From Chromatiales bacterium (lineage in GTDB: Bacteria; Pseudomonadota; Gammaproteobacteria; JAGRGH01), in the NCBI GenBank assembly GCA_020445605.1, contig JAGRGH010000032.1, positions 62,001 to 126,000 on the forward strand: a DNA stretch of 64,000 bases. Direction: 5' to 3'. How positions within the stretch are numbered: position 1 is the first letter of the stretch; each line of letters opens with the position of its first letter. Position numbers and translations under genes: made by a program. Positions 34,347 to 64,000 of this stretch are shown one piece after another. The notes under the pieces were generated by a model. That model was not told the DNA's origin, did not search any database, and worked only from the letters and a program-made list of their open reading frames with translations.

Positions 34347-34577
34347 GGTCTGAGGCAATCAAATGCGCCGAGATTCCGGGGCCGATCTGCATGAGCCGGG
34401 CGGTTCCGGCGGCCCCCCTTCAGCCGGACACAGCGCGAGGCCGGGCAACCCGCTGTACGGGCAATCGACGTGACCCGGCAAGTTGCGATTTCTGCCACCC
34501 CTCCATCGCGCCGCGGGGCATTTTTCGATTGGTTCTATACTGTTCTGTAACGGCCAGCCACACAAGTTGTTGACGCA

Positions 34578-39731: not shown

Positions 39732-39757
39732 CTAGTCTTTTGTTTTTGGGGCAATAA

Positions 39758-40222
39758 TATTTTTTTGACCGTACCCCAGAGACCGGCAGGTACACACACC
39801 GCGTGCCCCTGTCACAGCAAGCGCTCGCCACGCTCGAGGAATTGCACAAGGTCTCGGGCCATTCGCAGTGGCTGATGCCCGGTCGCCTCGAGGACAAGCC
39901 GGCGAGCCAGAACACCATGATCTTCGCCGTGTATCGGATGGGCTTCCACAAACGCACCACCGTCCACGGCTTCCGCGCCCTCGCCTCGACGATCCTGAAT
40001 GAGGCCGTCATCGAGGTCGACGGCAAGAAGCACCGCATGTGGTCCGTCGACGCCGTCGAACGCGCGCTGGCCCACACCGAGCAGAACAAGGTCAAGGGCG
40101 CCTACGACCGCGGCGACCGCTTCGAAGAGCGGACACGGATGATGCAGTGGTGGGCTGATTACCTGGACGCGGTCGCCAAGTCCGCGGCCACGATGGAATC
40201 GGGGAGCAACGGTGCCGAGTGA
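39758..40222 (+). pseudogene. Phage/island integrase (P4-type tyrosine recombinase), C-terminal remnant
   Basis: The frame opens after a TAA at 39755-39757 and gives RTPETGRYTHRVPLSQQALA, then WLMPGRLEDKPASQ, VHGFRALASTILNE, LAHTEQNKVKGAYDRGD and MMQWWADYLDAV. These are the HxxR, H and Tyr boxes of a P4-like integrase, in order. The N-terminal arm-binding and core domains and the first catalytic Arg are missing. A GTG at 39803 could start a short product, but it cannot be an active recombinase. It ends 124 bases before the AlpA-like gene. Confidence 0.82.
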
Positions 40223-40346
40223 TCAGTTACTTCAGCAGATTCAGCCGGCTGGAAACCACGACGCGGGTTGCATTGGTTTTCTGCAGCCATCGCCAGCGAT
40301 CTCAATACCATCTCCACAAGTGAGGTCGCGATAGCACAGGAGACCA

Positions 40347-40526
40347 ATGATGAAACGACTGATTACCGACAAGCAGCTCAAGGAGAAACTCGGCGGCTGC
40401 TCCGAAATGACGACCTGGCGCCTGCGGCGCGATGGCACGCTCCCGAAGCCCAGGCAGCTGGGCAGCCGAAACGTGACGCCCGAGGAAGAGGCGGACAAGG
40501 CGATAGCCCAGCTTATAGGGCCCTGA
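40347..40526 (+). CDS. AlpA-like small DNA-binding regulator
   Basis: A 59-residue protein from ATG 40347 (an ATG follows at once at 40350) with AGGAGA four to eight bases upstream. The sequence MMKRLITDKQLKEKLGGCSE, then MTTWRLRRDGTLPKPRQLG, matches the winged helix-turn-helix of AlpA/excisionase proteins that accompany P4-type integrases. It belongs with the integrase remnant just upstream, and may once have controlled excision. It is convergent with the DUF262 gene, 32 bases away. Confidence 0.82.
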   Translation: MMKRLITDKQLKEKLGGCSEMTTWRLRRDGTLPKPRQLGSRNVTPEEEADKAIAQLIGP

Positions 40527-40558
40527 TTTCGTAAAAATCCATAACGCCCGATTACCGG

Positions 40559-42433: not shown

Positions 42434-42469
42434 CTTCTATCTCCCGCCAATTTTTCGGTAATTCACATT

Positions 42470-47400: not shown

Positions 47401-49109
47401 TTCACATCCACGCCGTAGAGGCAGCGACCGATGATGTCGCGCAGCGCGTGCTGATAGAGGAGCGGCGAAGGTTCGCTTTCACCCTCGGCTAGCGCCCGGA
47501 CTCTCGCGAGGTGCCGCGCGAGCCGGTGCGCCGCGCCGACCAGGAAGTGGCCGGAACCGACCGCGGGGTCACAGACCTTGAGCGCGAGGATGGCCTGCTC
47601 CGCGTCGGCCGGCGGCTTGCCCTTGATGGCCTCCTCGACGACCGGGTCCAAGGCGGAGTCCAGCAAGCACTGCACCAGAGAATCCGGTGTGTAGTAGGAA
47701 CCGGAGGTCTTGCGCTCGTTGCCGGCAAACTCGGCGAAGGTAAAGCGCGCGCCATCGCCGCTCACCTGGGGGGTCAGCCCCAGCAGGCTCTCGTAAACGC
47801 CGCCCAGCTCCTCCGCGCCCAGGTTCTTGTAGTCCACCGGGCGCAGCACCTTGCCCTGGCGGGTGAAGGCGAGATGGCGCAGGGCCTCCAGCAAATCGAA
47901 GTTGGTCAGCTCGGCATTGTTGAGGTCGGGCGTCGAAGCCGTGTCCCAAAGGAAGCTACCGAGCGCCGGCAGAGCGAGCGCCTGCCGGATGGTCTCGGAT
48001 TCGGGCTCTCCCGAAAGTGCCCGGACCAGGATCTGGAATTGGCGCCAGAGGTCCCCATGCCGGCTGCCCTTGATCTTGCCTGCCATCTCGCGCAATCGGC
48101 CAGTGCCGTAGTGTGCGGCGTAGCGCTCGCGGGCAGCTCGCGCCGCATCGGAGTCATCCAAGGGGTGAATCAGGGGCTGGCCCTCGAGCGAGCGATCCTC
48201 GGCGACGAACAGGAAGATCAGTCGGTAGACCAGGCGCAGGAGCTGGGCGTGTAAATCGGTCGGCGACAACGCACTGGACCGCAGGGCATCGCGCAACGCG
48301 GCGTTTCTTGGATGGCTCGTGAACCCCTCGCCGAGGATGGCGAGCGCCTGCTCGACGCCGCGGCGCAGTTCGCCCAATGCCCGGGCGCCCTGTTCCTCGG
48401 CCTCCTGGGTCCACTGCTCAAGCCAGCAGGTCTCGGGGCGGTCGCCCTCTCTGGGCGCGAAACGGGTGGCGTGCGCTACCAGCCAGAGAAGTACGAAGTC
48501 GGAGTAGACCTCGCCGCTCATCATCGCTTCGAGGTCGAACTCGAGGAAGGACTGGCGCGACAGGGCTTGGTTGTCCCGCAGAATGCGCAGACGCAAGCCG
48601 TTCGACAAGAGCGCCCAAAGGTGCGCATCGCTGCGGTTGAGAAATTCCTGCACCAGGCCGTGCGGATTGGCAGCCGCCGCCCCGCGCTGGCCGGCAGCGC
48701 GGCGATCCAGCGAGAGATGGCAGCCGATCAGGTGCACGGGCACCGGCCCGAAGAAGCGGCTGATGGCGTAGGTGCGCCCACCGATTTCTGGACCAGCGCT
48801 GCTCGGCAGCAGTCCGAAGCCCAGTTCGCGCAGCAGTGGAAGGTTCCAGCGGTCGTTGGTAAGACCCGTGCCCGCTTCGGTTTCGGGCAGGTTCGCCGCC
48901 GTCTCACGGAACTCCGCCCAGTGCTTGCGCAGGCGGTTCCACGATTGGGTGATGACCTCGTTCAGCCGTTCCCCGGCCGGCAGGCCATAGTCCTCAGGCC
49001 GGGTGCCGGCGAGATTCGAGCTGCGATCCAGAACGCGACGCAGCAGATCCGCGGGCAGCAGGCCGCCCTCGGAACGGATGGTCTGGAACTCCTGATTGCG
49101 GCGCGCCAT
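44403..49109 (-). CDS. Giant Eco57I/PglX-like N6-adenine DNA methyltransferase
   Basis: A 1568-residue protein from ATG 49109. An N-terminal helical region of about 470 residues is followed by [16 protein letters not shown] and cofactor motif [15 protein letters not shown] (about 513-526). [11 protein letters not shown] comes next, with catalytic motif IV in [13 protein letters not shown] (NPPW at about 779-782). The C-terminal half is a target-recognition and helical region. Length and order resemble DISARM DrmMI and BREX PglX, and type IIG enzymes, but no clear nuclease motif is visible. It begins one base after the SNF2 helicase stop. Likely role: marks self DNA, or takes part in restriction. 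Confidence 0.88.
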
Positions 49110-49110
49110 C

Positions 49111-51945
49111 TCAGTTCAGCCTCGGCAGCAAGACGTAGGCGCCAAGGATGTCCACCGGCAGTACGGGCTCGATCGAAACACGCCCCCGCTTTCGGGAGGC
49201 CTCGCGCACGCGCTCGTGGGCCTCAAGCTGGGCCGCCGCCCGCTCCGCCGCCAGCGCTGCCAGCGCCTCCTGGACACGAGGCAGGCTCGGCAGCAGCAGG
49301 TTCATCTGCTGCTCGATTGCGGTGGGTAGAAGGTTGCGCTCGGGTCGCGCGTCGAGCAGACGCTCGCCTATTTCCGCTCCCAGCCACTGCGGCGCATCTA
49401 CCGGACCGGTAAAGGCCAGGGGCAGGATCTCCTCGCACAGCAAGGTCTCGCCATCACGACCCGCGACCTTCAGGTGGAAACGGAAACGCGCGACCAGAAG
49501 CGTCGTACGCGCCTCGACAACGGACGTCGAGACCGCGCCGCAGCGTGCGGCAATGGGCCGCGTATCGCGGGCCACTGGGTCCAGTGCCTGGTCGAGCGTC
49601 CATCCCGCGAGGCCCTCGACGATTGGGCTGGTGCGGCCCAGGTAGAGCTCTCCCTCCTGCAGCGGCAAATCGAAGCGGCCGGTGAACGGCTCATCCCGGC
49701 CAATCGCTTGGCGCAGAGCGCGCGGGGCCTCAAGGCCGAGGTGGACTACAAGCGCATTGCCCTTTTCTTCCGTCGGCACGTTCGCCGTTTGCAAGACGGT
49801 GCGCGCGAACCGTTCGACATCTTCGGCGCGGCCTATGGCTGCGCGCACACTCGCGAGTTCCTCGGCAACGGCCTCCGGACTCAAGGTGTGCTGCGCAAAG
49901 CGCGATCGGCTGGCCTTCTCGCGATCGCGCGCGTTGTCCCACTCCGCGTGGATCGATTCCTTCTTCGGGCCTAGGTCGTCGATAAACTGAAGCGACAGCT
50001 GACGATCTCCCTCCCGCGTCCTTTCGCGGAACAGCGCGCCCTCGAACAGGGTTTCCGCGATCTGCTCACTGGTACCGGGCACGGCGACCGTGACGCCGAG
50101 CGCGCTCTTGATGCTTTTATGCTTGCGGATCAGAACATCCAGAATGACCCCGTCGATGGGGTTATCCGCCCCATAATAGGTAACGACCCGCACCTCGGGT
50201 TTCTCTTGTCCAAATCGATCGACTCGTCCTTCGCGTTGCTCGTGGCGGGTCGGATTCCATGCTAGGTCGTAGTGCAGAACAGCGTCGAAGTGATCCTGTA
50301 GGTTGATGCCCTCGGACAGGCAGTCGGTGCATACGAGGACGAACTGGCCGCCCTCGGACACCAATGTGTGGATACGCGCCTCGCGCTCGGCAGGCGGCAG
50401 CAGACCGGTGACCGACTCAACCCGGACCTTGTCCGGCAGCGTTTCCCGCAGGTGACGCGCCACGTACTCCGCGGTATCGATGAAGCGACAAAAGACCACC
50501 GGATGGAATCCATCCTTTAGCAGACCTTTGATTTCGGTGGCAGCCCCTTGGAGCTTTTGGTCATCAGCCGGATCGAGCGCCTCGGCGCGACGGGCAAACT
50601 CCAGGAGCTTGGGCCGGCTGGCATCGCGGGCATCTTCCGTCTCGGTCCCCGGACTGAAATCCAGCGCGACGGTATCATCGTCGTCGCCATGGTCCAGAAC
50701 TGTCCGCCGGCCCACCTCATCAACATCCTCACCCTCGGCCTGGTCTACGGCGGCGCGACTGCGCAGCGTTGCCGCGGCGGCCGCCGGGCTCGATGAGACG
50801 CAACGCAGTAGCGCCAATGCTGACCAGTACCGGACGCGCTGTCTGCGATTGCCGCCGTCCTCTTCGGTCACGTACTCGTGAGCGAAATCGACGATTTCTT
50901 CGAAGAGACCGCGGTAGGCCGGATCGAAGTTGTAGGTGGCCTCCTTGTCCTTTCGCTCCGGGAAGGCGGTGTCGGTTTCCAGGTAATGGCGGATATCGGC
51001 CCGCCGCCGCTGAACCAAGTGCCGCGCGAGGTGGCGGCGGATACCCTCGCGTTCCGCCCGATCAAGATCCGTCGGCAGGTTGATGAAACTGTCGTCGAGC
51101 AGGCTCAGCAGCGAGCGGAAGGCGTCCTCATTACCGCTGTGCGGCGTTGCGGTCACGAGAATCATGTGACGCTCTGCGTCGGCTGATACACGGCGCAGAA
51201 GTTCATAGCGTTGCTGTCGCCCGCGGCCTACGCCGCCCGCCAGGGTACAGCCGTGCGCCTCGTCGACGATGACGCATTCGGGACACTTCAGCGCAAAGTC
51301 CTCCGCGCGGCGCGGTGCCTTGATGAAGTCGGTCGATACTACTGTGAAGGGATAACGTTCGAAGACGGATACCCCCAGCGGTAAGTCGCGCTCGAGACGC
51401 TGAATCGTGCTCGAGAGCACAAGCTCCGCATCAATGTGGAACTTCTCCGACAGCTCTCGCTGCCATTGCTCCGCGAGATGGGGCGGGCAAAGAATCGCTA
51501 GCCGTCTAATCTCGCCGCGATCGAGGAGCTCGCGCGCGATCAGGCTCGCCTCGATGGTCTTCCCGATACCGACGTCGTCGGCGATCAGCATCCGGATCGG
51601 ATCGAGCTTCAACGCCATCATTAGTGGTACGAGCTGATAGGGCCGAGGCTCGGCCGCGATGCGGCCGAAACTGCGAAACGGGCCGGCCGCCGAACGAGTC
51701 GAGAGGCGTGCGGCATCGCGCAACAAGCGCCCCGACGTGAAGTCGCCCAGATCGTCCATACCGGGTAGGCGGAACGTCGCCGATTCGACCGGCTCGACCG
51801 ATGGCAGCACGCCAGTGATCTCTTCATCGAGTCCACCAAGCGGGCGGAGAAGCAACAACTCTTCCGAAGAATCGGGCAGCACGACCCACTCTCTGCCACG
51901 CGCGTGGACCAGCGTGCCGGGCTTCGACAGGTAGGCTGCGCTCAT
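49111..51945 (-). CDS. SNF2/HepA-like helicase (DrmD-like)
   Basis: A 944-residue superfamily 2 translocase. Motif I is IADDVGIGKTIEASL (about 121-135), motif II VIVDEAHGC (DEAH at about 228-231), motif III LVTATPHSG and motif VI EQREGRVDRFGQEK. An acidic insertion (about 405-440, rich in Asp/Glu) separates the two lobes. A C-terminal domain of about 300 residues has no family I can name. It starts within the helicase stop (ATGA, four-base overlap) and ends one base before the methyltransferase, so all three should be co-translated. DNA translocation or remodelling during defence is the likely role. Confidence 0.88.
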   Translation of the reverse strand: MSAAYLSKPGTLVHARGREWVVLPDSSEELLLLRPLGGLDEEITGVLPSVEPVESATFRLPGMDDLGDFTSGRLLRDAARLSTRSAAGPFRSFGRIAAEPRPYQLVPLMMALKLDPIRMLIADDVGIGKTIEASLIARELLDRGEIRRLAILCPPHLAEQWQRELSEKFHIDAELVLSSTIQRLERDLPLGVSVFERYPFTVVSTDFIKAPRRAEDFALKCPECVIVDEAHGCTLAGGVGRGRQQRYELLRRVSADAERHMILVTATPHSGNEDAFRSLLSLLDDSFINLPTDLDRAEREGIRRHLARHLVQRRRADIRHYLETDTAFPERKDKEATYNFDPAYRGLFEEIVDFAHEYVTEEDGGNRRQRVRYWSALALLRCVSSSPAAAAATLRSRAAVDQAEGEDVDEVGRRTVLDHGDDDDTVALDFSPGTETEDARDASRPKLLEFARRAEALDPADDQKLQGAATEIKGLLKDGFHPVVFCRFIDTAEYVARHLRETLPDKVRVESVTGLLPPAEREARIHTLVSEGGQFVLVCTDCLSEGINLQDHFDAVLHYDLAWNPTRHEQREGRVDRFGQEKPEVRVVTYYGADNPIDGVILDVLIRKHKSIKSALGVTVAVPGTSEQIAETLFEGALFRERTREGDRQLSLQFIDDLGPKKESIHAEWDNARDREKASRSRFAQHTLSPEAVAEELASVRAAIGRAEDVERFARTVLQTANVPTEEKGNALVVHLGLEAPRALRQAIGRDEPFTGRFDLPLQEGELYLGRTSPIVEGLAGWTLDQALDPVARDTRPIAARCGAVSTSVVEARTTLLVARFRFHLKVAGRDGETLLCEEILPLAFTGPVDAPQWLGAEIGERLLDARPERNLLPTAIEQQMNLLLPSLPRVQEALAALAAERAAAQLEAHERVREASRKRGRVSIEPVLPVDILGAYVLLPRLN

Positions 51946-54900
51946 AAGCTGGGTACTCCGAAGACATCCGGATGGCGGCGGAAGATGGCTACCCAGTCAT
52001 CCCTGTGGTGGAAGCGGATCACGATATATCCCATTTCCAGCAGTCCGCGCGTCACTTCCTCGTCCTTGCGGATTTGATCCGCCTCGTCGTGAGGGGGGCC
52101 GTCGATGAAAACGGCGACGTTGGCTTCTCCATAATAGAAGTCGGGCTGGGCGAAGTAGCCAGGTATGCGATATTGCGCCTCGCTGGGCAGGCGGAGGCCC
52201 AAGGATTCGATTTCGTCCAGCCAGCGTTGCTCGAGCTGGCTGTCACAACGGGCTCTCAATGCCACCAGCCTCTCGGCGCGGGATCCGGTTCCACCCGCTG
52301 GGCGGCAAGTCGACCTGGCCAGCTCCACCAGGAGGTCACGGATCAGATTGCGATCCAGGTCCTTGTGGTCTGGCTGGTTGCCATAGTCGAGCAAACATTC
52401 GTAGCAGGCCTTGCCACAGGTCGCCGCACCCCGGTCTTCCAGCGTGTCCGAGTCGTAGTGGCATATCTCGAGCGCGCGGCGCGCTAAAGCCGGCAGAATC
52501 GCCGGCTCTTCCGCCAGTTGCCGAAGCACACCCGCGCCACCTTCCGAAGATTCGTAGAAGAGAATCTCCTGGCGCTCCTCCCGAGTCGGCATCGGCTCAC
52601 AGGACAATTCCCGCGGCTCGAGCTGGAAGTGCTGCTGTATCGCCTGCTTGAAAGCGGCTTGCAGGCCCGCCATTTCCGGACCTGAACGGGGCGGCTCAAA
52701 CCGCATCACCAGCGCGTTCTTCGTATCCTTGACGTAGGGGACGACCCGCTGGATTCTGGCGGCATTGGCCGCATCGTCCTGGTCTTCGTCGTCGGCCTGA
52801 TTGCGCGACCAGTACCCGCGCTCGAGGTCCAGGTTGAAGCCCGGCGGTTGATTACCGCGCTGGTTAGTCCAACCGAGGTTGATGCGGTACAGGTCCGTGG
52901 CATCTCCGTAGCTCAAATCCATCAACACCTGTCCGTCCGAGACGACCTCCGCGTCCTTCCGGTCAAGCTTTCCCCCTACCTCGGGGAAGCGATAGGCGGT
53001 GGCAAGCTTGTAGCCGAAGCGCTGGCGCTCCTCCTCGTCACAGGTGATTCGTTGCGCAAGCTTCAGGCTGACATTCTGCAGTTGAACCAGGTTGTCGATA
53101 CGTGCCGGGCCATCCAGTGCCGCTCCGCAGCGATCACAGACTTCAGTGAGATTGTTGGCGCCATGCTCCAGATGTGCGTACCCGCAGCTCGGGCAACGTT
53201 TCATTGTCGCCGTCATCAGATCATGGGTGTTCTCGATGTCATCCGAACCAAAGTCGAGATTGACCTTGTACACCCTGTACCGCGCACCTTCGTGGTAGAT
53301 CAGCGCCCGTGGACCGAACTCCGATATCGCGAGGAATCTTGGGCGAGAGACGAACTCGTCACGACCCCGCCGCTGACGGCGACCGGGCACATATGCGGAG
53401 AGCGGCAAACGGGGGAAGTTGTAACCAGGCAGGAAGCCTTCAGTCGCGAAATAGCGATACGAGTAGAAATCTCCCTCGTAGATCCCCTCGGCTTCTGTCA
53501 GCAGCCGAATCTGGCTCTCGGCTTGTGCTCGTAGCCGACGCGAATGATTTCGCTCGAGTTCGGGCCGGGAGTGATCTCCGATAATCGTGTGGTGCAGCTC
53601 GCGCTGCCGAACGGCCGCCCTGTACAAGCTCCGCCAGCGATCACAGGCGGATTCGAAGCTGCGCTCCACCTGCTCAAGGATTTCATCGAGCCAGTTCTCA
53701 TGAAACCATGAGGCGGTATCGAGCTCCTCCTTGATGCTTCGTACCAAGGCGCTGGCCTTTTGACGGGCCGCTGCTCGATGAACAGGGTTACGTAGTTCCT
53801 GGAGTAATCCGTCCTTGACGGACAGCGGCAATCGTCCGTCGGTTGGCGTGAGATCGAGCACTGTAGTCAACGTGCGACCGAGGTCAGGTTTCGCCACCTC
53901 CATCCAAACGGCATAGATATGGGACCGTACGAGGTCCCTATTTCGGAGGTCGATGCGGGGTGGCGCCACGGTACCGGCCACCATTCTTGTCGGCTCCCGA
54001 TAGAAGTATTGATCGTGCGGGCTGCGCCCAGCGCAGTACGTGAAGACAAGCGCCGGTTGGCCGCCACGCCCAGCACGGCCGCTGCGCTGGGCATAGTTCG
54101 CTGGGGTCGGTGGAACGTTGCGCAGATTCACCAAGTTGAGCTGGGCGATGTCGACACCCAACTCCATCGTGGGCGAACAGAACAACAGTGGCAGGTCACC
54201 CGCTCTGAAACGTTCTTCCCGCTCTTCCCGGTCCTCCGAGGTGACCTGGGCAGTATGTTCGCGGGCTTCGAGTACGCATTTCAGGTCGACGAAGCCCTTG
54301 TAGCAATCCACAAAGTAGCGGTTGACCTCCGGGGGGATTTCCCCGGCATCCAAAAGACGCGTGCGATCTACTGGCCGAACCTCGCCGTGACCCGGTAGCC
54401 ACCGTAGCGCGTCCGCATTGAGCTGATAGCCCGGGTCGTCGTTATCCCGGCCGCTACGAACCTGCTCGATAATTCCGTAGCGTTTCAAAGCCAGCAGCAA
54501 GAACCGAATAATCTCGTCGATCTCCGCGCGTCCGAGCGCGTGATCAGGAGGGACCACTTGGCTGAGAGTACGTTTGACGTAGCGCCCGTAGGCACCGTAA
54601 GAGGAAACAAAGAAGCCGCTCCTATCCTGCCGACTTCGAGGCCTCGGATAGGCAACAACGGCACGTGTCAGTTCACGCTCATCCTCCAGATACCAAACGG
54701 TACCTTCAAGCAATCTCGGCTTGGTTTGCTCTACGAGCTCGTGCTGCTTTTGCGGATCCAGCACATCGACTTTGACGGCAAGCGAGCGCCGCATCACGTC
54801 CAGCAAGGTACGAAGCAACTCCTCGCGGATTTCCGCAGGGGCCAGCTGCAACGCCGCCGGAGCTTCTACGAACCGTTGCGCGGCCCGCCCTTCGCGCATG

Positions 54901-57221
54901 GAGAAGCCCGCTTCCCATAGTTCAGCCTCGGTGAGCAGGCTCTCTTCCCCCAAGAGTCCCTCGTACTCGAAGCGAAGGAGTCCACAGTCTTCCAGATTCG
55001 GAGCAGTGACTCGCCAGCCTCTTTCCAGATCTCGATACAGGAAATATTCAATTACGCGCCGCAGGGCGTCGTGCGTTGCCTGCCTGGCTGGGCCGCGGAC
55101 ATCCGGATCTGCCGCGTACTCTGCAAATTCGAGCTCCATCGCCTCGAAGACAGATCGTGAAAGAACGCCGTGGCGAAGGCCGACTGTATGCGTCTTCTCC
55201 GTTGCACGGTGGAGTGCCGAGCGCAACAGCGCGACCTGGACGAAGTCGTTGAAGTGCCCCGCCTGCAGAGATGCGTCCTGTCGGTTGTCTGTGAAGCTAA
55301 GTAGCTTGCGAGCTTCTGGGCGCAGGTCCCGGTCACCCTGCAGCTCGATGAGGGACCGAACGGCCAGAATCGTGGTCGCCGTGCTTCTGTTGTCCACACC
55401 GAGCGTAGCCAGCTTGTTGCGCTCAGATCTCTGGCTCTTGGTATAAGCGACACCGCATGACGGTTCGAGACAGAAAAGGAAGTTGCGATGGATCAGCGCC
55501 GCGTCGATGCCATTGCCTTCGGCGGTGAGCCTGCCCGACGCGTCGACGAATACAGCTTCAGGGACGTCCTTGCGCGCATCGGGTCGGATGCGTTCGATTC
55601 CCTGTGCCGTCGTCTCCTTGAGATAGTCCGGCACACGCGCCGGGCGGGCCTGCTCATCGCCACGTGGCCAGGGAGATTCCTGGGAGACATACAGATAGGC
55701 GTCCGTACTACCGTCGTCATCCTCCTCACGCCGATCCTCTCTGGGAAACAAGAGCTGGCCATGCTCGTCTTCCACAATTCGCACGCGGTAGTAGGCCGTT
55801 CCGCAATGGCGACAGAACACCAACGGGTATAGCGGCTTCTCGGGCTCGCCGGGCTTTGCGGCTTTCTTGGCAATCTCCAAATGCCGTTGGGCTTCAGGCT
55901 CAATTGAAGCCCAGACCGTATCGCCGCGCGTGAAGAACTGATGAAGCCGAAAGGCAAAGATCGGGAAGCGGCTTGACTCACTACGGCGAAGCGACGAGCC
56001 ATGAAGCAGCCATTTCCGCAGAACGTCGGCGCAGTCTTCCGGCGCCACACCGGTGAGGGCCGCGAGTTCGTCCGAGGCGCTCTCCTGCCCATCAATGTGC
56101 TCGCCCTTTAGCCTTCGGGGAAGTTGCCTCAGGAGGCGGCATGTACCGACCTCCTCCCGTACGCCAAACGTTGATTCGATCCATGACGCGAGCGCGTGTA
56201 TGCGGAAGGATTCGTAGTCTGTAGGCGGCTCCTCCTTTGCCTCCATTGTGTTCCTGATCGTCTCGACCACAGACTCGGAAAGCTCGATCTCCGGCGTGGC
56301 TCGTTCGAGCGTCTCGCCGATAATCTGCTCTGGATCAAACGGCACGCCAAACAGCGACTGCGCGACCTTTGCAACCTCGCGCTGCTGCTCATCACTTGTG
56401 CCACCACTGGCCATCGTGGCAGAAGTGCCAATGCACGTAATATCGTGCCCACCGAATGCCTCGCGACAGCGCCGAATGAGTAGTGCTACATCAGCACCCT
56501 GGCGCCCACGATAGGTATGTAGCTCATCAAAGACGAGAAACTGAAGCCCCTGTGCTGCACGCACGAGTTCCCGGTCTTCTGCCCGCGTAAGGAGAAGCTC
56601 GAGCATCATGTAGTTCGTGAGCAGGATGTCCGGAGGATTGCTACGAATCGCCTCGCGCGCGTCGCCCTTCTCCTGGCCCGTATATCGCGCAAAACGAACC
56701 GGCGATTGACCCTCTGCATAACCTTTGTCGAGGAATTTCTTGAGTTCCTCGTCCTGGCTATTCGCCAATGCGTTCATCGGATAGACGATGATCGCCTTTA
56801 TACCGCCGCCGGACCTTTTGCGTAGGATATGGTCAACGATGGGGACGATGTAGGTCAGGCTCTTACCTGAACCCGTACCGCTGGTCAAAACGTATGACTG
56901 GCCCTGGTTGGCCTTGAGGATTGCCTCGCGTTGGTGTTCATGGAGCAGCAGCTGCTTTCCGACGTGATCCGTATCCGATTTGTCGATTCGGAAGATTCGG
57001 GAACATTCCTTATGCAGAACTCCCTGCTCGACCAGCTCATCTATCGTGCCACCGGGATGGAACGTCGGGTTGAGTTGAAGAAGCGGCTCAGGCCAAAAGC
57101 CCTCTTTGTTCAGAACGTTGTCAACGAAGTCACTGACGCGCGTATCGCGAATCTTGATAAAGCTTCGCGTGTAGCTCTGGTAGTCCGATACCAAGCGGTC
57201 CCTAAGGTCAAAGACGTCCAC
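51942..57221 (-). CDS. DEAD/DEAH helicase with DUF1998 and C-terminal Vsr/DUF559-like nuclease domain (DrmA-like)
   Basis: A 1759-residue protein from GTG 57221. Motif I is LTSGTGSGKSLTY (about 112-124), motif II FDELH (about 231-235), motif III GTSATM and motif VI YAQRSGRAGRGGQ. Cys pairs in VFCRHCGTAYY and RCPSCGYAHLEHG...VCDRCG look like zinc ribbons. The DUF1998 segment carries GKACYECLLDYGNQPDHKDL. The last 90 residues have a PD-(D/E)XK layout as in Vsr/DUF559 proteins: YRIPGYFAQPDFYYG, VAVFIDGPPHDEAD, then LLEMGYIVIRFHH. It is the first large gene of the operon, two bases after the HTH gene. It is longer than canonical DrmA because of the added nuclease-like domain. Confidence 0.87.
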   Translation of the reverse strand: MDVFDLRDRLVSDYQSYTRSFIKIRDTRVSDFVDNVLNKEGFWPEPLLQLNPTFHPGGTIDELVEQGVLHKECSRIFRIDKSDTDHVGKQLLLHEHQREAILKANQGQSYVLTSGTGSGKSLTYIVPIVDHILRKRSGGGIKAIIVYPMNALANSQDEELKKFLDKGYAEGQSPVRFARYTGQEKGDAREAIRSNPPDILLTNYMMLELLLTRAEDRELVRAAQGLQFLVFDELHTYRGRQGADVALLIRRCREAFGGHDITCIGTSATMASGGTSDEQQREVAKVAQSLFGVPFDPEQIIGETLERATPEIELSESVVETIRNTMEAKEEPPTDYESFRIHALASWIESTFGVREEVGTCRLLRQLPRRLKGEHIDGQESASDELAALTGVAPEDCADVLRKWLLHGSSLRRSESSRFPIFAFRLHQFFTRGDTVWASIEPEAQRHLEIAKKAAKPGEPEKPLYPLVFCRHCGTAYYRVRIVEDEHGQLLFPREDRREEDDDGSTDAYLYVSQESPWPRGDEQARPARVPDYLKETTAQGIERIRPDARKDVPEAVFVDASGRLTAEGNGIDAALIHRNFLFCLEPSCGVAYTKSQRSERNKLATLGVDNRSTATTILAVRSLIELQGDRDLRPEARKLLSFTDNRQDASLQAGHFNDFVQVALLRSALHRATEKTHTVGLRHGVLSRSVFEAMELEFAEYAADPDVRGPARQATHDALRRVIEYFLYRDLERGWRVTAPNLEDCGLLRFEYEGLLGEESLLTEAELWEAGFSMREGRAAQRFVEAPAALQLAPAEIREELLRTLLDVMRRSLAVKVDVLDPQKQHELVEQTKPRLLEGTVWYLEDERELTRAVVAYPRPRSRQDRSGFFVSSYGAYGRYVKRTLSQVVPPDHALGRAEIDEIIRFLLLALKRYGIIEQVRSGRDNDDPGYQLNADALRWLPGHGEVRPVDRTRLLDAGEIPPEVNRYFVDCYKGFVDLKCVLEAREHTAQVTSEDREEREERFRAGDLPLLFCSPTMELGVDIAQLNLVNLRNVPPTPANYAQRSGRAGRGGQPALVFTYCAGRSPHDQYFYREPTRMVAGTVAPPRIDLRNRDLVRSHIYAVWMEVAKPDLGRTLTTVLDLTPTDGRLPLSVKDGLLQELRNPVHRAAARQKASALVRSIKEELDTASWFHENWLDEILEQVERSFESACDRWRSLYRAAVRQRELHHTIIGDHSRPELERNHSRRLRAQAESQIRLLTEAEGIYEGDFYSYRYFATEGFLPGYNFPRLPLSAYVPGRRQRRGRDEFVSRPRFLAISEFGPRALIYHEGARYRVYKVNLDFGSDDIENTHDLMTATMKRCPSCGYAHLEHGANNLTEVCDRCGAALDGPARIDNLVQLQNVSLKLAQRITCDEEERQRFGYKLATAYRFPEVGGKLDRKDAEVVSDGQVLMDLSYGDATDLYRINLGWTNQRGNQPPGFNLDLERGYWSRNQADDEDQDDAANAARIQRVVPYVKDTKNALVMRFEPPRSGPEMAGLQAAFKQAIQQHFQLEPRELSCEPMPTREERQEILFYESSEGGAGVLRQLAEEPAILPALARRALEICHYDSDTLEDRGAATCGKACYECLLDYGNQPDHKDLDRNLIRDLLVELARSTCRPAGGTGSRAERLVALRARCDSQLEQRWLDEIESLGLRLPSEAQYRIPGYFAQPDFYYGEANVAVFIDGPPHDEADQIRKDEEVTRGLLEMGYIVIRFHHRDDWVAIFRRHPDVFGVPSL

Positions 57222-57223
57222 CT

Positions 57224-57442
57224 TCAGCCCCCCCGCTCATCGGCAGATTCACCGCTCGTTCTCGAATTGCCACTTCCGCCGCCGCGGACCCATTGATCGA
57301 CTTCGTCCTTTCTGAATTTCCACAGCCGCCCAACCTTGTGGGCAGGCATGTTCTTGCGGTCGATCCACTTGTACACGGTGTCCCGCTTGATCCCGAGGTA
57401 CAGGGCAATCTCGTCGACCGAGAGCCATCGGTCTTCAACCAT
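57224..57442 (-). CDS. Excisionase-type helix-turn-helix protein
   Basis: A 72-residue protein from ATG 57442, with AGGGG 11 bases upstream. RWLSVDEIALYLGIKRDTVY, then KWIDRKNMPAHKVGRLWKF and RKDEVDQWV, is the classic MerR/excisionase DNA-binding fold. A Gly/Ser-rich tail follows. The stop lies two bases before the helicase start, so it heads the six-gene operon. Small HTH proteins of this type are common at the head of helicase-methylase defence operons, where autoregulation is likely. Confidence 0.87.
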   Translation of the reverse strand: MVEDRWLSVDEIALYLGIKRDTVYKWIDRKNMPAHKVGRLWKFRKDEVDQWVRGGGSGNSRTSGESADERGG

Positions 57443-57733
57443 CTACTTGTTTCCCCTGACGCAAACCCGGCAGGCCTTTGCCGCTGGACCAGGCTCGAAA
57501 CCCATAAAGGAGCGAATTGTCCAATTGGTACGGCTACACTAGGCCTCATGCTAGTAGAAGTGGGCGGGTTGAACCAGCCAAAATTGAGGAAATCGTCGGG
57601 TTGGCGCGAAGAAATGACGGAAGTTCAGTAGGTTGGACGCAGGTATTCCTGAAACGGGGCCCGGCGTAGACTGTCACTGATGACAAGCGCCCGTGCCGGC
57701 CCGGACCGGTTCACCAGTCAGGAAGCGAATGCG
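57443..57733. other. Divergent control region of the defence operon
   Basis: No gene is visible. It must contain the minus-strand promoter of the six-gene operon. It includes the palindrome CCAATTGG within ATTGTCCAATTGGTAC, and CTAGGCCTCATGCTAG further right, either of which could be an operator. I see no convincing -35/-10 pair. Confidence 0.4.
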
Positions 57734-57952
57734 GTGAAGAGAGTATTGAAAGCAAGCGGCAGGCTCACGATCGCGACGATCGGCGCGGGCGTCGGAGCGC
57801 TGTTGGCTGCGGTCCGCTTTCTGGCCGGCGCCGCCGAGACGACGCCGGCGGACGACGAGCTCAGCAGCTCCGTCCGGGGCGGCCTCCTCAACTACAGGAC
57901 TGGCAAGTTCGACGACGGAACCGATCCGGCCGGTATCTACAAGCCTGATTAG
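57734..57952 (+). CDS. Small ICE-associated membrane protein
   Basis: A 72-residue protein from GTG 57734, with AGGAAG eight bases upstream; an ATG 54 bases earlier in frame lacks a ribosome site. One hydrophobic segment (ATIGAGVGALLAAVRFLAG) is followed by GGLLNYRTGKFDDGTDPAGI. The latter resembles, from memory, the tail of small proteins beside traG in PFGI-1-type ICEs. It is convergent with the TraG remnant 14 bases away, which supports that origin. Confidence 0.6.
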   Translation: MKRVLKASGRLTIATIGAGVGALLAAVRFLAGAAETTPADDELSSSVRGGLLNYRTGKFDDGTDPAGIYKPD

Positions 57953-57966
57953 GCTCCCCCGACTCT

Positions 57967-58305
57967 CTATTTCCGGATTCCTTTCGACAGGGCAGCCTTA
58001 CCGATGGCCCCGCCCTGACGGCCGGCGTCCTGAGCGGGATTCCGCATCGCGCTGGTCGCGACCTCGAGGGACCGCCCCACCTTCAGGCCCGCCCAGCCCA
58101 TCATGCCCGTCCAAAGCAGGGGCAACCCCAGGTAGAGGCTGGTCGTGATCATGTTGAGCAGCATGCGTTTAGCGTCGTGCTCGCCGGGGTTGGCGAAGAT
58201 CTGCAGGAACACGTTCACGTCCGGGTACATGGACAGGATCAGGTTCTGGTCCACCCACATGGCCAGGTACCAGAGCACGCTCCAGAACTTGACTGTGAAG
58301 ATTTC
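57967..58305 (-). pseudogene. ICE conjugal transfer protein TraG (N-terminal-domain family), C-terminal remnant
   Basis: In one frame from 58305 the sequence reads FTVKFWSVLWYLAMWVDQNL, then PGEHDAKRMLLNMITTSLYL and LLWTGMMGWAGLKVGRSLE, ending ALSKGIRK and a stop. This is the end of the large inner-membrane TraG-N protein of PFGI-1/SXT-related elements (usually 450-500 residues). An in-frame TAA at 58306-58308 cuts homology. Only about 110 residues remain, so it is not functional. It shows that the island sits in, or replaced, ICE DNA. Confidence 0.78.
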
Positions 58306-58661
58306 TTAATCCGCCGTAGCTCCACAAGCCTTCATTACTCTTTTCTTGCTGTCTTTTCCACAACGTCATAGAGGGTCAGCACCTCCGTACGCCGCGGGAA
58401 ACTCAGAATTTTCAGAGATTCCCAGAAGCCTCGAAGCGATGGCCACCCACCAAGTGACGCGATCGGTGAAAACACCAGCAAAAATCCTCAATGGTAAGTT
58501 CGCGAGTCCTTTGGGTGGACACTGACCCGCAGTGCTGAAAACATCGCGCCACACGGAAAAAAACAAGGTATTGCCGTAAATCTTGACTCATCGTGTGCCC
58601 GCCATATCCTTGCAGCTACCGGTAAGGTCCAGCATTGTTGTCGTGCTCCGGCAATTCCGAG
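58306..58661. other. Non-coding gap with repeat B4
   Basis: This 356-base stretch holds no convincing gene. The family B hairpin is at 58396-58423. Between it and the broken end of traG the sequence is AT-rich and weakly like the interior of a B element. The part beyond 58424 shows nothing I can name. Confidence 0.5.
58396..58423. repeat. Family B hairpin, copy B4
   Basis: GGGAAACTCAGAA pairs with TTCAGAGATTCCC, preceded by CGCGG as in the other B copies. Read on the minus strand the element would extend towards the truncated traG end at 58305, so insertion of this element may mark the break point. Confidence 0.65.
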
Positions 58662-59060
58662 CTAGTTATACTTTCCGGTTGCAACCCCGCCACCAGTCAT
58701 GACAGCCCTCAAACGCCGAATCTCCAGTTCCAAGGTTCGGTTGATCGACGCCAAGGACGCTGCGTCATTATTCGAATCGCGCAACTCCTTCCGGAGTCTC
58801 ACTATTGTAGCGCGCGCCACCCTAAGCTGTTCGTTCTTCTGATCCCTTAGGGCTCGACTGGTCCGGCCTTGGGCCGCCCGGATTTTCTCCGCCACCTCCG
58901 GATATCGATTGTGGATCGTCGCAGTTGAAACCTCGGCCTCACGCGCCACATTGGCGAACGTCAGCTTGGCATCGCCCTTCACGATTCGGCCCCGGCCGCG
59001 CTGGATCCGGTATAGAGCCATCTCCAGCCGGTGCTGAGTTCGATTTCGTTCAATCGTCAT
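58662..59060 (-). CDS. TnpC/DUF6262-like recombinase accessory protein
   Basis: A 132-residue protein from ATG 59060 (MTIERNRTQHR); a TTG at 59084 would overlap the preceding recombinase by eight bases. A basic N-terminal part carries a helix-turn-helix-like LTFANVAREAEVSTATIHNR, followed by a coiled coil (LRVARATIVRLRKELRDSNN, then LELEIRRLRAVM). Size, layout and position after tyrosine recombinases match TnpC of Tn554-type elements. It probably helps or orients recombination. It is the last of four overlapping genes. Confidence 0.72.
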   Translation of the reverse strand: MTIERNRTQHRLEMALYRIQRGRGRIVKGDAKLTFANVAREAEVSTATIHNRYPEVAEKIRAAQGRTSRALRDQKNEQLRVARATIVRLRKELRDSNNDAASLASINRTLELEIRRLRAVMTGGGVATGKYN

Positions 59061-59076
59061 GAGCAGGGCCGAGAAC

Positions 59077-60960
59077 CTACTCAATGACGCTCAACACGCC
59101 CAGATCCGTTAACACCTGCTCGCAACGCCGCAAATCTCGCTCGACTCGTCGTCGCGCCGCATCCCCTATGTCGTTGATCTGACGCAGTTCGAGCTGCTGC
59201 TGATATACCCCACGCCAATAGGGTATTTTTTTGTCATCTATCACGGCATTTGAGCATCCACCACAGAGCGTACGCTCTACTGCGCCTCGGCCTCCGCAGC
59301 CACCATCGTCCGCCGTGCACCATGCAGCCCCCGTCGCTCTAAGGTAAACACTTTCGGAGATCGTCTTCGCCATTTCTCGGCGAGTGTGGTAGACACGCAA
59401 CTTGTCGTCCTTTGATCGAAACGCACGAATGTTACCCGCGGCCCCACCCGAGAGCAGGGTCTCCTCGTCGAGCCAATGCGCGATGACTTCTATTGAGTGA
59501 TCCGCTATTGCCAAGTCAATTTCGGCAAACAACTCTGGATCCTGTTTGCTATTGCGCGCATAGATCCAAGTCATATCCATAGACCAGTGCTGCATGTGGT
59601 CGCGCAAGTATCGGAGATCACCCAGCTTTGACCGCGCAACGTATACGGCAAACGTGCGACGAAACTGATGCGGCGCGAAGTCCCAATTGATCCCGCGTCT
59701 GGCGGCGAACCGTCTGATCGCGTATTGCATGGTGTACTCATGCACTGCGGCGACAGTGTTTCCAGCTCCAGTATTGTTTGCCAAAAAAAGGCGGTCCACG
59801 TCCGCGCGAATGTTAAGTGCATCGAGACAGCAAGGATCTTCCAATTCTTCTAACTTACTTGACAACCTTTCTTGAAGCGGCTGAGCTACCCGCTGCGCTA
59901 CATCCAGTGCCGTTGTAACTATTTCAGGAATCATCCATTCAGTTTCGCCGATTCCCGTTTTATCGGATCGTGAGCGCATCCAGTAATATACACCGTCGTC
60001 GCGGATTTCACGACGCCACGCGTTGTTTCGCAGGTTGCGCAGTTCATGCGCGCGAATCCCTGATAGCGATAGAATCACTATTATCGCCGCATCTCGCAAC
60101 TCCCCGCGGGCTTGGCCAAGATCGCGCACGGATCCCTCGAATCCGGCCTCTGATAGGAACCGGCACACTGCCCCCCGAATACTAGTGGAATTGAACCCGC
60201 GTTCGCGCCAATCCGCTCGCAGGTCCTCAACTTGTTGCATCAATTCCAACAGGTAGCTCGCAATCTCTAGCCGTTCGCGCGCCGCCTGAAACAACTTCCT
60301 CCAAGCATAGTCGGGAATTACGGCAGTGCCGGCTTCGAGTCCACCCTTCCACGACATACCGGCAAGATAACAAGCTGTTGCGTCTGGCCAAGGGTGCGGG
60401 AACGCAAAGGGAGTACCCGCGGCATGCTTCTGAAGCTTTTCCACAGCGCCAAACAATAGTGCCAAATACCGGGGTTTCCGTGGCTGTCCCCTGTTTTTTC
60501 CCCCGGAAACTGGAAGCGATTTGCAATGGTTCACATAACTCAGACAGTGAATTGGCGTAGTGTCGGCCAAGTTCGTGATCCCTAGCGACGACAGATACTC
60601 CAGAAATTGCGCCATGGACCGGTGCATCCCAAAAAGGGATTGGCCCTGAGGCTTATCGCTACGCAGGTACCGCCAGAATAGCTCCTTGAAGGAATCCTTA
60701 AGCGCCTCCGGCGTGCCGACAAACGAGATCCTACGTTGAGGTTCGCTGAATTTATCGAAGCTCCCGGCCTTGGGCCATTCCCAGACGTCGTCGCCGTATC
60801 GACTGATTACCCGGTATTCGCCTTCTTCCCCCAAGTGCCAGGTAACCGGCAGCAGCCTAACCGTATCGGTCGATAGCGCCCCAAACTCTACCTGTCGCAT
60901 CTCATGTTGGTCCGCCACCGGCACTCGGTCGGAAGCTAAGTGGGGCCGCAAAGCACTCAC
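59077..60960 (-). CDS. Large tyrosine recombinase (TnpB-like), third gene of recombinase module
   Basis: A 627-residue protein. I choose GTG 60960, which overlaps the previous TGA as GTGA; an upstream TTG at 60993 is possible. The tyrosine-recombinase core is in residues about 290-490: ILSLSGIRAHELRNL (first Arg), APHQFRRTFAVYVAR (HxxR), DHMQHWSMDMTWIY (His/Trp box and nucleophile Tyr). A C-terminal zinc-like cluster has AWCTADDGGCGG and ERTLCGGCSNA. Length is near that of Tn554 TnpB (630). All key residues are present, so it looks active. Confidence 0.85.
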   Translation of the reverse strand: MSALRPHLASDRVPVADQHEMRQVEFGALSTDTVRLLPVTWHLGEEGEYRVISRYGDDVWEWPKAGSFDKFSEPQRRISFVGTPEALKDSFKELFWRYLRSDKPQGQSLFGMHRSMAQFLEYLSSLGITNLADTTPIHCLSYVNHCKSLPVSGGKNRGQPRKPRYLALLFGAVEKLQKHAAGTPFAFPHPWPDATACYLAGMSWKGGLEAGTAVIPDYAWRKLFQAARERLEIASYLLELMQQVEDLRADWRERGFNSTSIRGAVCRFLSEAGFEGSVRDLGQARGELRDAAIIVILSLSGIRAHELRNLRNNAWRREIRDDGVYYWMRSRSDKTGIGETEWMIPEIVTTALDVAQRVAQPLQERLSSKLEELEDPCCLDALNIRADVDRLFLANNTGAGNTVAAVHEYTMQYAIRRFAARRGINWDFAPHQFRRTFAVYVARSKLGDLRYLRDHMQHWSMDMTWIYARNSKQDPELFAEIDLAIADHSIEVIAHWLDEETLLSGGAAGNIRAFRSKDDKLRVYHTRREMAKTISESVYLRATGAAWCTADDGGCGGRGAVERTLCGGCSNAVIDDKKIPYWRGVYQQQLELRQINDIGDAARRRVERDLRRCEQVLTDLGVLSVIE

Positions 60961-62558
60961 GGCACGGCTTCCAGTTGCTCGCGGCTTCGCCAAAACGGGT
61001 GCGGATTGACTTTGGCTCGTTCCTTGGCTGCCTGGACGGCTACCGGGCTAAACTGCGGCTCGATATCCCGGTCGATCAGTCTTATGACGGCGGCGTAGTA
61101 GCGGGACCACCGCCTCGCGCCAAGTCTTGCGCGCTCCCGCACTAGAAGCCAATAAAAACTGTAGAGTCGATACAGATCATCTACTGTGATCACGAAAGAC
61201 TTACATCGGACGCAACTCATGAAGTCGTCGCAATATTGTGTGCTGCTCAGGCCTAGGTTGTGGCGACACCGCGCGACGGGTGTCTGGGCTGTGCTGGTCG
61301 AAAGCACATGTTCACCCGCGAGATCCGCGGCCAACACCTGTCCGAGGAGCCTGAAGTTCTGCTCGGCCACTGGCGGTGCCTCCAAGTAGTGGTCGTTGCT
61401 GATCCTGGCGGAGTGATTTCCCAGGCGCGCTGTAACGATTGGATCTCCATCGGACAAAACCCAAACTCTATTGATGTAGGTTTTTCGCAGCCGCATAAAA
61501 TTCAACGCTAAGAAGCGTCCAGAGTCGTCCAGCAAACTATGTCGAGCGACAAACGCAGGGATAATTTTTGCAATCGTCGTATATGAGATTACTTTTTTTT
61601 CTCCGAGCATACCGCGCTTTCTTGACTCGCATACGAACAATTGATTCGCAAGTCGAGCGTCCGCGCGCAGATGTGCGTTGCGGGCGATGATCATTTCGAT
61701 AATAGTCACTACATCCGGCAAAATCGTCTTGGATGTTTCGACAGACTCGCAATACCGCAGAGCCTGAACCTGCGGACCGCCACCCCTGCGTTTTACACTA
61801 ACCAGCAGTCGGCGACTGGTTTTCAGTGGATGCGCCCGAATGCAGTCGGTAGAAAGCTCGATCAGGGAGGTTGGATTTAGGCCGCTCCGCAGGCTGATCG
61901 CAAGCATACACACAACAAGGTCATCAGCGTTCAGCGCTCCTTCGCGTTTTTGAATCTCGACCAAATCCTCCTTTAAGCATTGAGTCAGCCGTCTGCGCTC
62001 AGCGTCTGAGAGCGGCGTTGCACCCTTTTCGGCGCGTCTCGCGCCCGGAAACGGATTGTCGGGAAAGAGACCCTCTCGGCGGATCCACCCGTTGGCGGCC
62101 ATACGCTCGAGAACGGTTTTAGTGGATGAATAGCGCTTTCTCAACGCAGAAGGTTTATAAGCCGTATTGCGGAGAGCGGCCACGTAAGAGTCGATCAGGT
62201 CGCAGTTTATGTCGACTAGTGTCAAAGGGTGCCCGAGCAAGGATGACCACATCTGACAGAACGGCAGAAACGACTTCAGGCCAACCGCCCAATAACTCGC
62301 TACGGTAGTGGCTTGTAAAGTGGTTTCGTTAAGCATCGCGTGGATGATTTGCTGACACGCCCTCGTAACATCATCAATGTGGCCGTCATACCAGGCGGCA
62401 AATGACAATTGGCGAATACGGCACGTTCGATTTTCGATAGTTATGACCGTATCCCGTGGGTTGTCCTGCCACCGAATAGGACGCGTAGCAGATGATGCGA
62501 AGTCGGTTCCTCGAGCGGATTCCCCCAGAGCTACGTCAAATCGTTTTCGTTTCGACAT
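60957..62558 (-). CDS. Divergent tyrosine recombinase, second gene of recombinase module
   Basis: A 533-residue protein from ATG 62558, in a TGATG overlap with the first recombinase. An N-terminal SAM-like domain (about 85-200) precedes a catalytic-type region: ISLRSGLNPTSLIEL, ALNFMRLRKTYINRV and RLGNHSARISNDHYL. The HxxR box appears as NxxR, so a catalytic His is replaced, while the Arg and Tyr positions remain. The Cys pair DDFMSCVRCKSFV follows. It may be a weak or architectural member of the set. Confidence 0.8.
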   Translation of the reverse strand: MSKRKRFDVALGESARGTDFASSATRPIRWQDNPRDTVITIENRTCRIRQLSFAAWYDGHIDDVTRACQQIIHAMLNETTLQATTVASYWAVGLKSFLPFCQMWSSLLGHPLTLVDINCDLIDSYVAALRNTAYKPSALRKRYSSTKTVLERMAANGWIRREGLFPDNPFPGARRAEKGATPLSDAERRRLTQCLKEDLVEIQKREGALNADDLVVCMLAISLRSGLNPTSLIELSTDCIRAHPLKTSRRLLVSVKRRGGGPQVQALRYCESVETSKTILPDVVTIIEMIIARNAHLRADARLANQLFVCESRKRGMLGEKKVISYTTIAKIIPAFVARHSLLDDSGRFLALNFMRLRKTYINRVWVLSDGDPIVTARLGNHSARISNDHYLEAPPVAEQNFRLLGQVLAADLAGEHVLSTSTAQTPVARCRHNLGLSSTQYCDDFMSCVRCKSFVITVDDLYRLYSFYWLLVRERARLGARRWSRYYAAVIRLIDRDIEPQFSPVAVQAAKERAKVNPHPFWRSREQLEAVP

Positions 62559-63682
62559 CAGAGCCGGTCTATCTCTTCCTGAAACGCCGCTAGAACTCGA
62601 TCCTCAATCATGTCGACATAGTGCAGATAAATTTCGGTGGTCGTTACACTAGCATGCCCCAACCTATCGCGGAGGTACATCAACGCGTTCCCGACATCCA
62701 TGTGTTGCTTCATACTGATCAATGTGTAGGTCGCGTAGGAGTGGCGCAACATGTGCTGGTATACAAAACCTAGATGCCTCTTTATTTGCGCGTTGATTGA
62801 CTGCGAGTTGACACTGTAGGGGTGGCCGAATCTAGTAATGAACAGCGGTTTACATTCCATGGTTCCGCTCTGATCGAGTCTTGCCTGACGTTCGTGCAGT
62901 TTGTATTGCCAGAGACGATCCATCAGCGACCAAGGCACGTCGATTCGGCGCGCTCTGTCTCCTTTGACCGACATTTCTCGCGGATTTAATTCGACGGGGA
63001 TTAATGTCCTGCGGTCGTGCGCTGGATTGATCACAGAAGAGGCGGGGAAACTAAGCGCCTCCTCTTTTCGGAGACCGGTCTGTATCTCCAGCCGCAAGAT
63101 AAGATTCAGGGTAGGGTGATGCATCGTGCCTTCCATTAGGCTTCGAATCTGGTCCATCGATAGGAGCCTGAGCAACGGACGCGTCTCACGCATTAGGACG
63201 CTCGGTGTTCCTCGGGTCGGAGCGGACTTGCGGAAATGGGCATAGAAATCTTTGCGTCGAGGGACTATAACCTCGTCAATATCGTAAGGTACTCGCGATA
63301 CCCACCCCACCTGGAATGCGTATCGATAGAACTGCAGGATCAATCGGAGGCGGTAATTTACGGTAGTGGGTGACAGGCCTTGGCGAATTGACCAGTCCCG
63401 ATAGGTAGCGACGATGGAATGATTGTTGTCGTAGAGGCAGTCGCGATAGTCCAGGTTACGAGCTTCCAGAAAGCCAAAATAGTCGTACATCGCTTGACCA
63501 TAGGGCCGCCACGACTTCTCGGATTGGACTCGGCCGCGACTCAGGCAATGGTAGATCAAAAAATCGCAGGCCGACTCTACCGAACGCATGTCCCGGTCGA
63601 GCAGGATTGGAAACCCCGGATACGACAATCCGCCGACTCGGAAATCGTCGGTGGCCCAAACCAGTCTCACCCTGAAACCCAC
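62558..63682 (-). CDS. Tyrosine recombinase (TnpA-like), first gene of recombinase module
   Basis: A 374-residue protein from GTG 63682 (MGFRVRLVW). A SAM-like N-terminal domain (about 45-140) leads to the catalytic domain: LEIQTGLRKEEALSFP, YQHMLRHSYATYTLI (HxxR), RLGHASVTTTEIYLHYVD (His and nucleophile Tyr). Length and motifs match TnpA of Tn554-like elements and RIT recombinases. It starts the four-gene module; its stop overlaps the next ATG. Confidence 0.88.
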   Translation of the reverse strand: MGFRVRLVWATDDFRVGGLSYPGFPILLDRDMRSVESACDFLIYHCLSRGRVQSEKSWRPYGQAMYDYFGFLEARNLDYRDCLYDNNHSIVATYRDWSIRQGLSPTTVNYRLRLILQFYRYAFQVGWVSRVPYDIDEVIVPRRKDFYAHFRKSAPTRGTPSVLMRETRPLLRLLSMDQIRSLMEGTMHHPTLNLILRLEIQTGLRKEEALSFPASSVINPAHDRRTLIPVELNPREMSVKGDRARRIDVPWSLMDRLWQYKLHERQARLDQSGTMECKPLFITRFGHPYSVNSQSINAQIKRHLGFVYQHMLRHSYATYTLISMKQHMDVGNALMYLRDRLGHASVTTTEIYLHYVDMIEDRVLAAFQEEIDRL

Positions 63683-64000
63683 GACCGAACAGCACGGTGT
63701 TGTTGGCTGACTTGAGCCAACGGGACTAGATCAAGATTCCGACTCGACCGCTGCGCACCTAGCGTCCGCCGATCCGCCGCGCACCAAGCACGAGTTTGTC
63801 GATGGATTAGCGTGTCTGCCGGTGCGACCCGCTGACCGGGATACCCCCGGCATCGGTGGCCCCAAACAAACCGCCTACGAGGGCTCGCCGTAATTGACTG
63901 CATTTCGCCTACGTAACCTCTCTGGCCCACCCAGGAACATCCCGAGCAGCACCGGCACTCGGATTACCATAGGCTAGGAGGCCATCATCTATTTGTCTAC
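63683..64000. other. Right-edge non-coding sequence
   Basis: Apart from the small inverted repeat at 63703-63720, these 318 bases show no gene, RNA or repeat that I can support. The element's outer end, if it lies here, cannot be identified without the sequence beyond the window. Confidence 0.4.
63703..63720. repeat. Inverted repeat upstream of the recombinase operon
   Basis: TTGGCT and AGCCAA are separated by six bases, 20 bases upstream of the first recombinase start. It could be an operator or a recombination core at the element end. I cannot decide which. Confidence 0.35.

Follow-up and report, generated by a model that had tools for sequence, protein, structure and literature searches.

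The window analysed here, 64,000 nucleotides of contig JAGRGH010000032.1 from a Chromatiales bacterium (positions 62,001 to 126,000), carries close to its right-hand end a minus-strand operon of about 5.1 kb (58662-63682) that encodes, in order, an intA/ginA-like tyrosine recombinase, a tfp-like degenerate recombinase, an intB-like large tyrosine recombinase and a small srap/ginD-like protein (Table 1). A check of the open reading frames placed all four genes where a previous reading made from the letters alone (the sequence-only reading) had put them. The overlaps of 1 to 8 bases that it had claimed hold for two junctions (1 and 8 bp); the third is 37 bp, or about 4 bp with a later start of gene 3. 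The product of this gene, which has 638 residues counted from the first TTG and about 627 from the later start, contains Cys in its C-terminus. Proteins 1 and 3 match Pfam PF00589 (28.8 and 33.2 bits), and a profile scan gave no Pfam match to protein 2. In an AlphaFold model (mean pLDDT 80.8), however, protein 2 resembles Tn1549 Int, XerH and Cre, with a best E of 3.9e-6 at a probability of 1.00; it is thus a recombinase-fold protein.

We compared the catalytic residues of the three recombinase-like proteins across 92 related modules. Genes 1 and 3 carry the full R-K-H-R-H-Y set in 91 and 92 modules, respectively, save for one gene-1 His. In the gene 2 product of the window, Arg I and the box II His are both replaced by Asn, and Lys, Arg II and Tyr are retained. 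The change of HxxR to NxxR that had been noticed from the sequence is thus borne out, and it is accompanied by a second substitution: Arg I is Asn in all 92 modules, box II His is Asn in 83 of them, and both Lys and Tyr are kept throughout. Because these changes recur across the modules, NxxR is a family trait rather than a local decay, and the degeneracy of the second recombinase follows a fixed pattern.

Next to the module lies a five-gene operon for two helicases, an N6 methyltransferase, an SMC-like ATPase and a type IV restriction enzyme, which we predict to be a phage-defence cluster; the small excisionase-type HTH regulator-like frame stands directly upstream of it. Plasmids of Nocardioides and Roseomonas have the helicase-helicase-methylase core but not the module, and Deinococcus plasmids have the DpdE-like gene; the core is therefore independent cargo. 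A TraG_N fragment is placed between the module and the defence operon and, together with a nearby 90-residue frame of no known family, is probably debris of another mobile element. Apart from this fragment we recognised no transfer machinery in the element delimited below, and movement from cell to cell would therefore depend on a plasmid, on a phage or on the uptake of DNA.

Table 1. Features of the island and of its surroundings, in window coordinates unless marked L009
Feature	Coordinates	Strand	Details
Gene 1, intA/ginA-like tyrosine recombinase	62558..63682	-	374 aa; R-K-H-R-H-Y complete
Gene 2, tfp-like degenerate recombinase	60957..62558	-	533 aa; tyrosine-recombinase fold
Gene 3, intB-like large tyrosine recombinase	59077..60993	-	638 aa; R-K-H-R-H-Y complete
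Gene 4, srap/ginD-like small protein	58662..59084	-	140 aa; HTH-like
TraG_N fragment	57967..58278	-	39.8 bits; host-like codon GC
ORF of no known family	57680..57952	+	90 aa; inside element
Small ORF, excisionase-type HTH regulator-like	57224..57442	-	72 aa; family by eye
DruE-like DEAD/MZB helicase (cargo)	51942..57221	-	1759 aa
DpdE-like SNF2 helicase (cargo)	49111..51945	-	944 aa; 836.8 bits, full length
Eco57I-type N6 methyltransferase, DrmMI/type IIG-like (cargo)	44403..49109	-	1568 aa
LmuB/SMC-like ATPase (cargo)	42470..44419	-	649 aa
GmrSD type IV restriction enzyme (cargo)	40559..42433	-	624 aa
Possible tyrosine recombinase remnant	39803..40219	+	PF00589 20.8 bits (cut-off 27.1)
AT-rich cargo end	39690..39769		GC 0.36; second-lowest 80-bp stretch in 25-68 kb
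Cargo-side terminal arm TTTTGCTTTGTTGTA	39703..39717	+	inverted repeat of module-side arm
Cargo-side core (crossover) CAACCC	39697..39702		identical copy at L009:54-59
Integrated element	39697..64000 (end 54 bp past window)	-	24,357 bp; repeats, arms, restored SPFH gene
Host SPFH/Band_7 gene, C-terminal part	38940..39696	-	outside element
Host SPFH/Band_7 gene, N-terminal part	L009:60-1021		far side of element
BglII-like endonuclease and MT-A70-type methyltransferase	37445..38820	-	outside element
Gene of unrecognised family	33153..34358	-	401 aa; unusually low GC

The two ends of the element are marked by the hexamer CAACCC, whose module-side copy (L009:54-59) corresponds to window coordinates 64054-64059, just outside the window. 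Beside each copy lies a terminal arm in inverted orientation (consensus TTTTGCTTyTGTTGT); the module-side arm TTTTGCTTCTGTTGT (L009:39-53) pairs with the cargo-side arm at 14 of 15 positions with one gap. On the plus strand the cargo end reads GATCTGC/CAACCC/TTTTGCTTTGTTGTA and the module end ACAACAGAAGCAAAA/CAACCC/TCGACACG; the exact direct repeat of the ends is the 7-bp CAACCCT. A first search for ends, which used ungapped 22-bp arms, did no better than shuffled controls; the arms identified afterwards require one gap. Among 4092 pairs of sites sharing a hexamer, the CAACCC pair had the best arm score, which was equalled in 1 of 60 shuffles; taken alone, the terminal repeats are suggestive only. 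The element has a GC content of 0.595 and its flanks one of 0.64-0.66, and the lowest-GC 80-bp stretch between 25 and 68 kb (63990-64069, GC 0.31) lies at the end opposite to the AT-rich cargo end.

Beyond this modest repeat signal, decisive support for the ends comes from the gene that they interrupt. Joining the flanks at CAACCC, which we did in silico solely to display the inferred empty site, unites a family-less 328-residue frame (L009:35-1021) with an orphan Band_7 fragment (38940-39696) in a single SPFH/Band_7 reading frame of 574 codons. Homologues of this gene in three other genomes (55-69% identity) are unbroken across the junction and read V-E-G-W at the core position, and in comparisons with four of four homologues the similarity of the 328-residue frame ends at residue 322, exactly the junction. 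A search for an empty site by flank synteny found none among the compared genomes, which are related at the level of class at closest, and the empty site is accordingly deduced from the orthologous SPFH genes of other genomes. Two alternative positions of the far end, at 37.4 kb (a change in codon usage) and at 32.93 kb (the 10-nt repeat TTCTGTTGTT), were abandoned when restoration of the SPFH gene at 39,697 became apparent.

The module stands at one end, the two ends pair, and a conserved SPFH gene is made whole when the flanks are joined. We therefore consider it highly probable that the genes of the module serve as the recombination operon of a single 24,357-bp island with the adjacent defence operon as its cargo, and that this island is of a recently described kind, known as strand-biased circularising integrative elements (SEs) or genomic islands of the ginABCD type (GInts). 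The island is inserted within a gene for an SPFH membrane protein. The same anatomy is supported by two relatives of the module. On a Marinobacter plasmid (L023), the core AAGATG flanks an element of 7,449 bp, and joining across it restores umuC; at L043 the right end is identical to that of L023 (28 of 28 positions). The two 6-bp core copies of L043, CCCATG and AAAATG, agree only in part, a difference to be expected if they have separate origins.

We weighed two other accounts of these boundaries. In the first, the two ends pair by coincidence and the island really extends further, taking in for example the BglII-like and MT-A70-type genes (37.4-39 kb). The atypical codon GC that continues to about 37.4 kb, the restriction of arm similarity to just 15 bp and the unproductive initial search for termini could all be read in this way. 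However, the C-terminal half of the SPFH gene stands between the BglII-like gene and the element end and is the in-frame continuation of the N-terminal half on the far side of the element; we regard a larger island as most improbable. In the second, the defence operon arrived earlier or by way of another element, and the module inserted beside it without mobilising it. Such a history would fit the TraG_N fragment with host-like codon use that separates module and operon, the recombinase-like remnant at the far end, and the existence of the helicase-helicase-methylase core without the module in other phyla. Yet the core and arms pair on either side of module and operon, restoration of the SPFH gene requires that both be removed together, and a cargo assembled earlier would still travel now; we therefore think two separate events very unlikely. 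The suggestion of the sequence-only reading that the module may mobilise the defence cargo thus gains structural support from the single island, whose ends appear to enclose the entire operon, and the reconstructed empty site likewise puts the whole of it inside the element.

Some minor features surround these boundaries. The C-terminal recombinase match just inside the cargo end falls short of the family cut-off and is perhaps the remnant of an earlier recombinase. Outside the element, beside the interrupted SPFH gene, the BglII-like endonuclease and MT-A70-type methyltransferase genes are likely to form a second restriction-modification pair. The 401-residue gene of unrecognised family, about 5 kb outside the element, has an SGGVDATFS motif and looks PP-loop-like by eye.

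We compared the module with described recombinase operons. SEs, among them SE-6283, SE-6945 and SE-PaeBT2436, are defined by intA, tfp, intB and srap together with 6-bp cores and imperfect inverted ends; their terminal inverted repeats are 13-19 bp long beside the 6-bp core, and they form circles without an empty site and leave a strand-biased 6-bp fingerprint (PMC9345347, PMC10214605). As references we used SE-6283 on pSEA1 and an element of the SE-PaeBT2436 type that was identified through its Srap protein, WP_023443007.1; a complete SE sought in pAQU1 was not found. Profiles matched genes 1-4 to their SE counterparts in order (E 2.3e-29, 2.9e-5, 8e-22 and 5.7e-12). Genes 1, 3 and 4 share 28, 25 and 31% identity with SE-6283, which is at or above the level between the two SEs themselves (23, 22 and 28% for the same genes). 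Like SEs, the window element has the four genes in intA, tfp, intB, srap order at one end, RHRY in genes 1 and 3 as in IntA and IntB, the degenerate recombinase in second place, and inverted-repeat ends beside a 6-bp core, as also seen in L023; it is present in one copy, is inserted in a gene, and belongs to a host that groups with gammaproteobacteria by RpoB placement; a search of that genome turned up no 16S gene. The element differs from SEs in gene 2, whose product has 533 residues against the 773 of Tfp and still bears Lys, Arg II and Tyr, while published descriptions of Tfp have it without RHRY; the match of gene 2 to Tfp is the weakest of the four (3e-5). The window element also bears defence cargo.

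Could the island instead be a GInt (ginABCD) of the Tn6571 and Tn6488 type (PMC5385486, PMC10121019, PMC8865565)? All four genes of GInts are needed, and the islands excise as circles (PMC5385486). In common with GInts, the window element has three recombinase-like genes and a small TnpC-like/HTH-type gene at one end, a large variable cargo and an AT-rich far end, the last seen here at the cargo end. Defence or restriction cargo is reported in E. coli and Pseudomonas GInts: GInts carry defence systems in E. coli (PMC10121019), and restriction cargo is frequent among them (PMC5385486). The operon of about 5.1 kb also fits the 5.8-kb gin segment of pGInt0, and the relatives of the window module reach Burkholderiales, a departure from SEs in an order where Idola et al. 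saw GInts and no SEs. Conversely, the degenerate GinC is third, next to ginD, in published GInts (PMC5385486, PMC10214605), and the degenerate gene is second in all modules that we examined, as in SEs; filing the element under GInts, our first choice, is weakened by this position. The terminal inverted repeats with a 6-bp core also match the description of SEs. GInts are flanked by imperfect direct repeats of 10-17 nt; the exact direct repeat of the window element is 7 bp long, which speaks clearly neither for nor against a GInt. We regard the GInt assignment as a real possibility towards which we do not quite lean; were it correct, at least some excision events would yield an empty site, and strand bias would not be required. 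By profile matches, identities and the position of the degenerate gene, the window element stands closest to SEs; its comparison with GInts was made against published descriptions.

The wider kinship proposed in the sequence-only reading fared unevenly. The module is indeed a recombination module of a Tn554-related kind with an extra degenerate recombinase: it shares with Tn554 an ordinary recombinase, a large recombinase and a small helper (TnpA, TnpB and TnpC), and a 6-bp footprint is described for that transposon. Tn554 is without a gene 2 counterpart (PMC10214605), whereas the window has an extra recombinase-fold gene between the two; the four-gene set, however, did not arise here by insertion of an extra gene into a Tn554-like pair, as had been supposed, but is standard in SEs and GInts. 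The link to RIT elements fails. They too have three recombinase genes in tandem, but these encode proteins of 315-410 residues, all with the catalytic tyrosine (PMC10214605), and a fourth gene is absent, against 374, 533 and 638 residues and a fourth gene in the window. A tentative link to gamma-mobile-trio elements (GmtX, GmtY, GmtZ) gained no support from a search of NCBIfam, where no match bore that name, in a library whose coverage of such models is unconfirmed.

By analogy with SEs and GInts, the proteins of genes 1 and 3 would attach to the terminal arms and carry out strand exchange at the 6-bp core, the gene-2 protein would bind as a structural or cleavage-impaired partner, and the gene-4 protein would be a required accessory factor; deletion of intA, intB or srap each ended circle formation in an SE (PMC10214605). 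The product would be a circle bearing the defence operon, able to reinsert at a matching target site. A more speculative reading, which we think unlikely, is that the modules whose second recombinase keeps its Tyr and lacks Arg I make up a branch of their own, separate from both SEs and GInts, where the fixed asymmetry imposes a one-sided, copy-out exchange. The gene-2 subunit would then have a nucleophile and yet be unable to activate the phosphate normally, and the island would be copied out instead of cut out. This fixed asymmetry is the part most worth following, and it makes the question of strand bias in circularisation testable by point mutation.

The four-gene architecture and defence-carrying GInts were already known; what is new here is an element delimited at both ends. 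The island belongs to a little-known class, has exactly placed boundaries and carries a long defence operon of several genes; it lends further weight to the view that islands of this sort spread defence systems outside E. coli.

We traced the distribution of the module with tblastn searches of plasmids and a single scan of contigs from genomes. The same four genes recur in the same order at about 90 other loci, and the arrangement is therefore not due to chance. Hosts include Pseudomonas, Marinobacter, Vibrio, Legionella, Methylophaga, Alteromonas, Burkholderia and Massilia, among others. Far from never standing next to variable cargo, these homologues commonly do so, with a blaVMB-1 integron, ars, mer and CBASS genes among their neighbours. 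Defence genes showed no excess downstream of related modules and were if anything fewer there, with 46 PADLOC families matched downstream (92 ORFs) against 188 upstream (95 ORFs). A general claim that the module family is armed for defence is accordingly unsupported, although matches to Mokosh, Avs2, PifA and MADS-like systems do occur downstream. The defence operon of the window was found at no other module among the approximately 90 loci.

In a quick tree of gene 3 with SEs as outgroup, the window sits on its own long branch inside the family. Its nearest module, in Thiorhodococcus minor (L060), shares 53% identity along a part of gene 3; this module is truncated, with a break in that gene, and is followed by a P-loop ATPase-like gene, possibly defence cargo too. 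Two four-gene modules are adjacent at L075, L096, L103 and L124, and the pairs at L096 and L124 each combine one module of SE type with one from the wider family of the window; such modules seem to share insertion regions. Among the modules at L023, L043, L109, L114, L062, L067 and L090, several clades lie in or beside umuC and others have as neighbour a nuclease gene resembling EndA or a gene resembling ComM, as judged by eye, so that target preference differs between clades.
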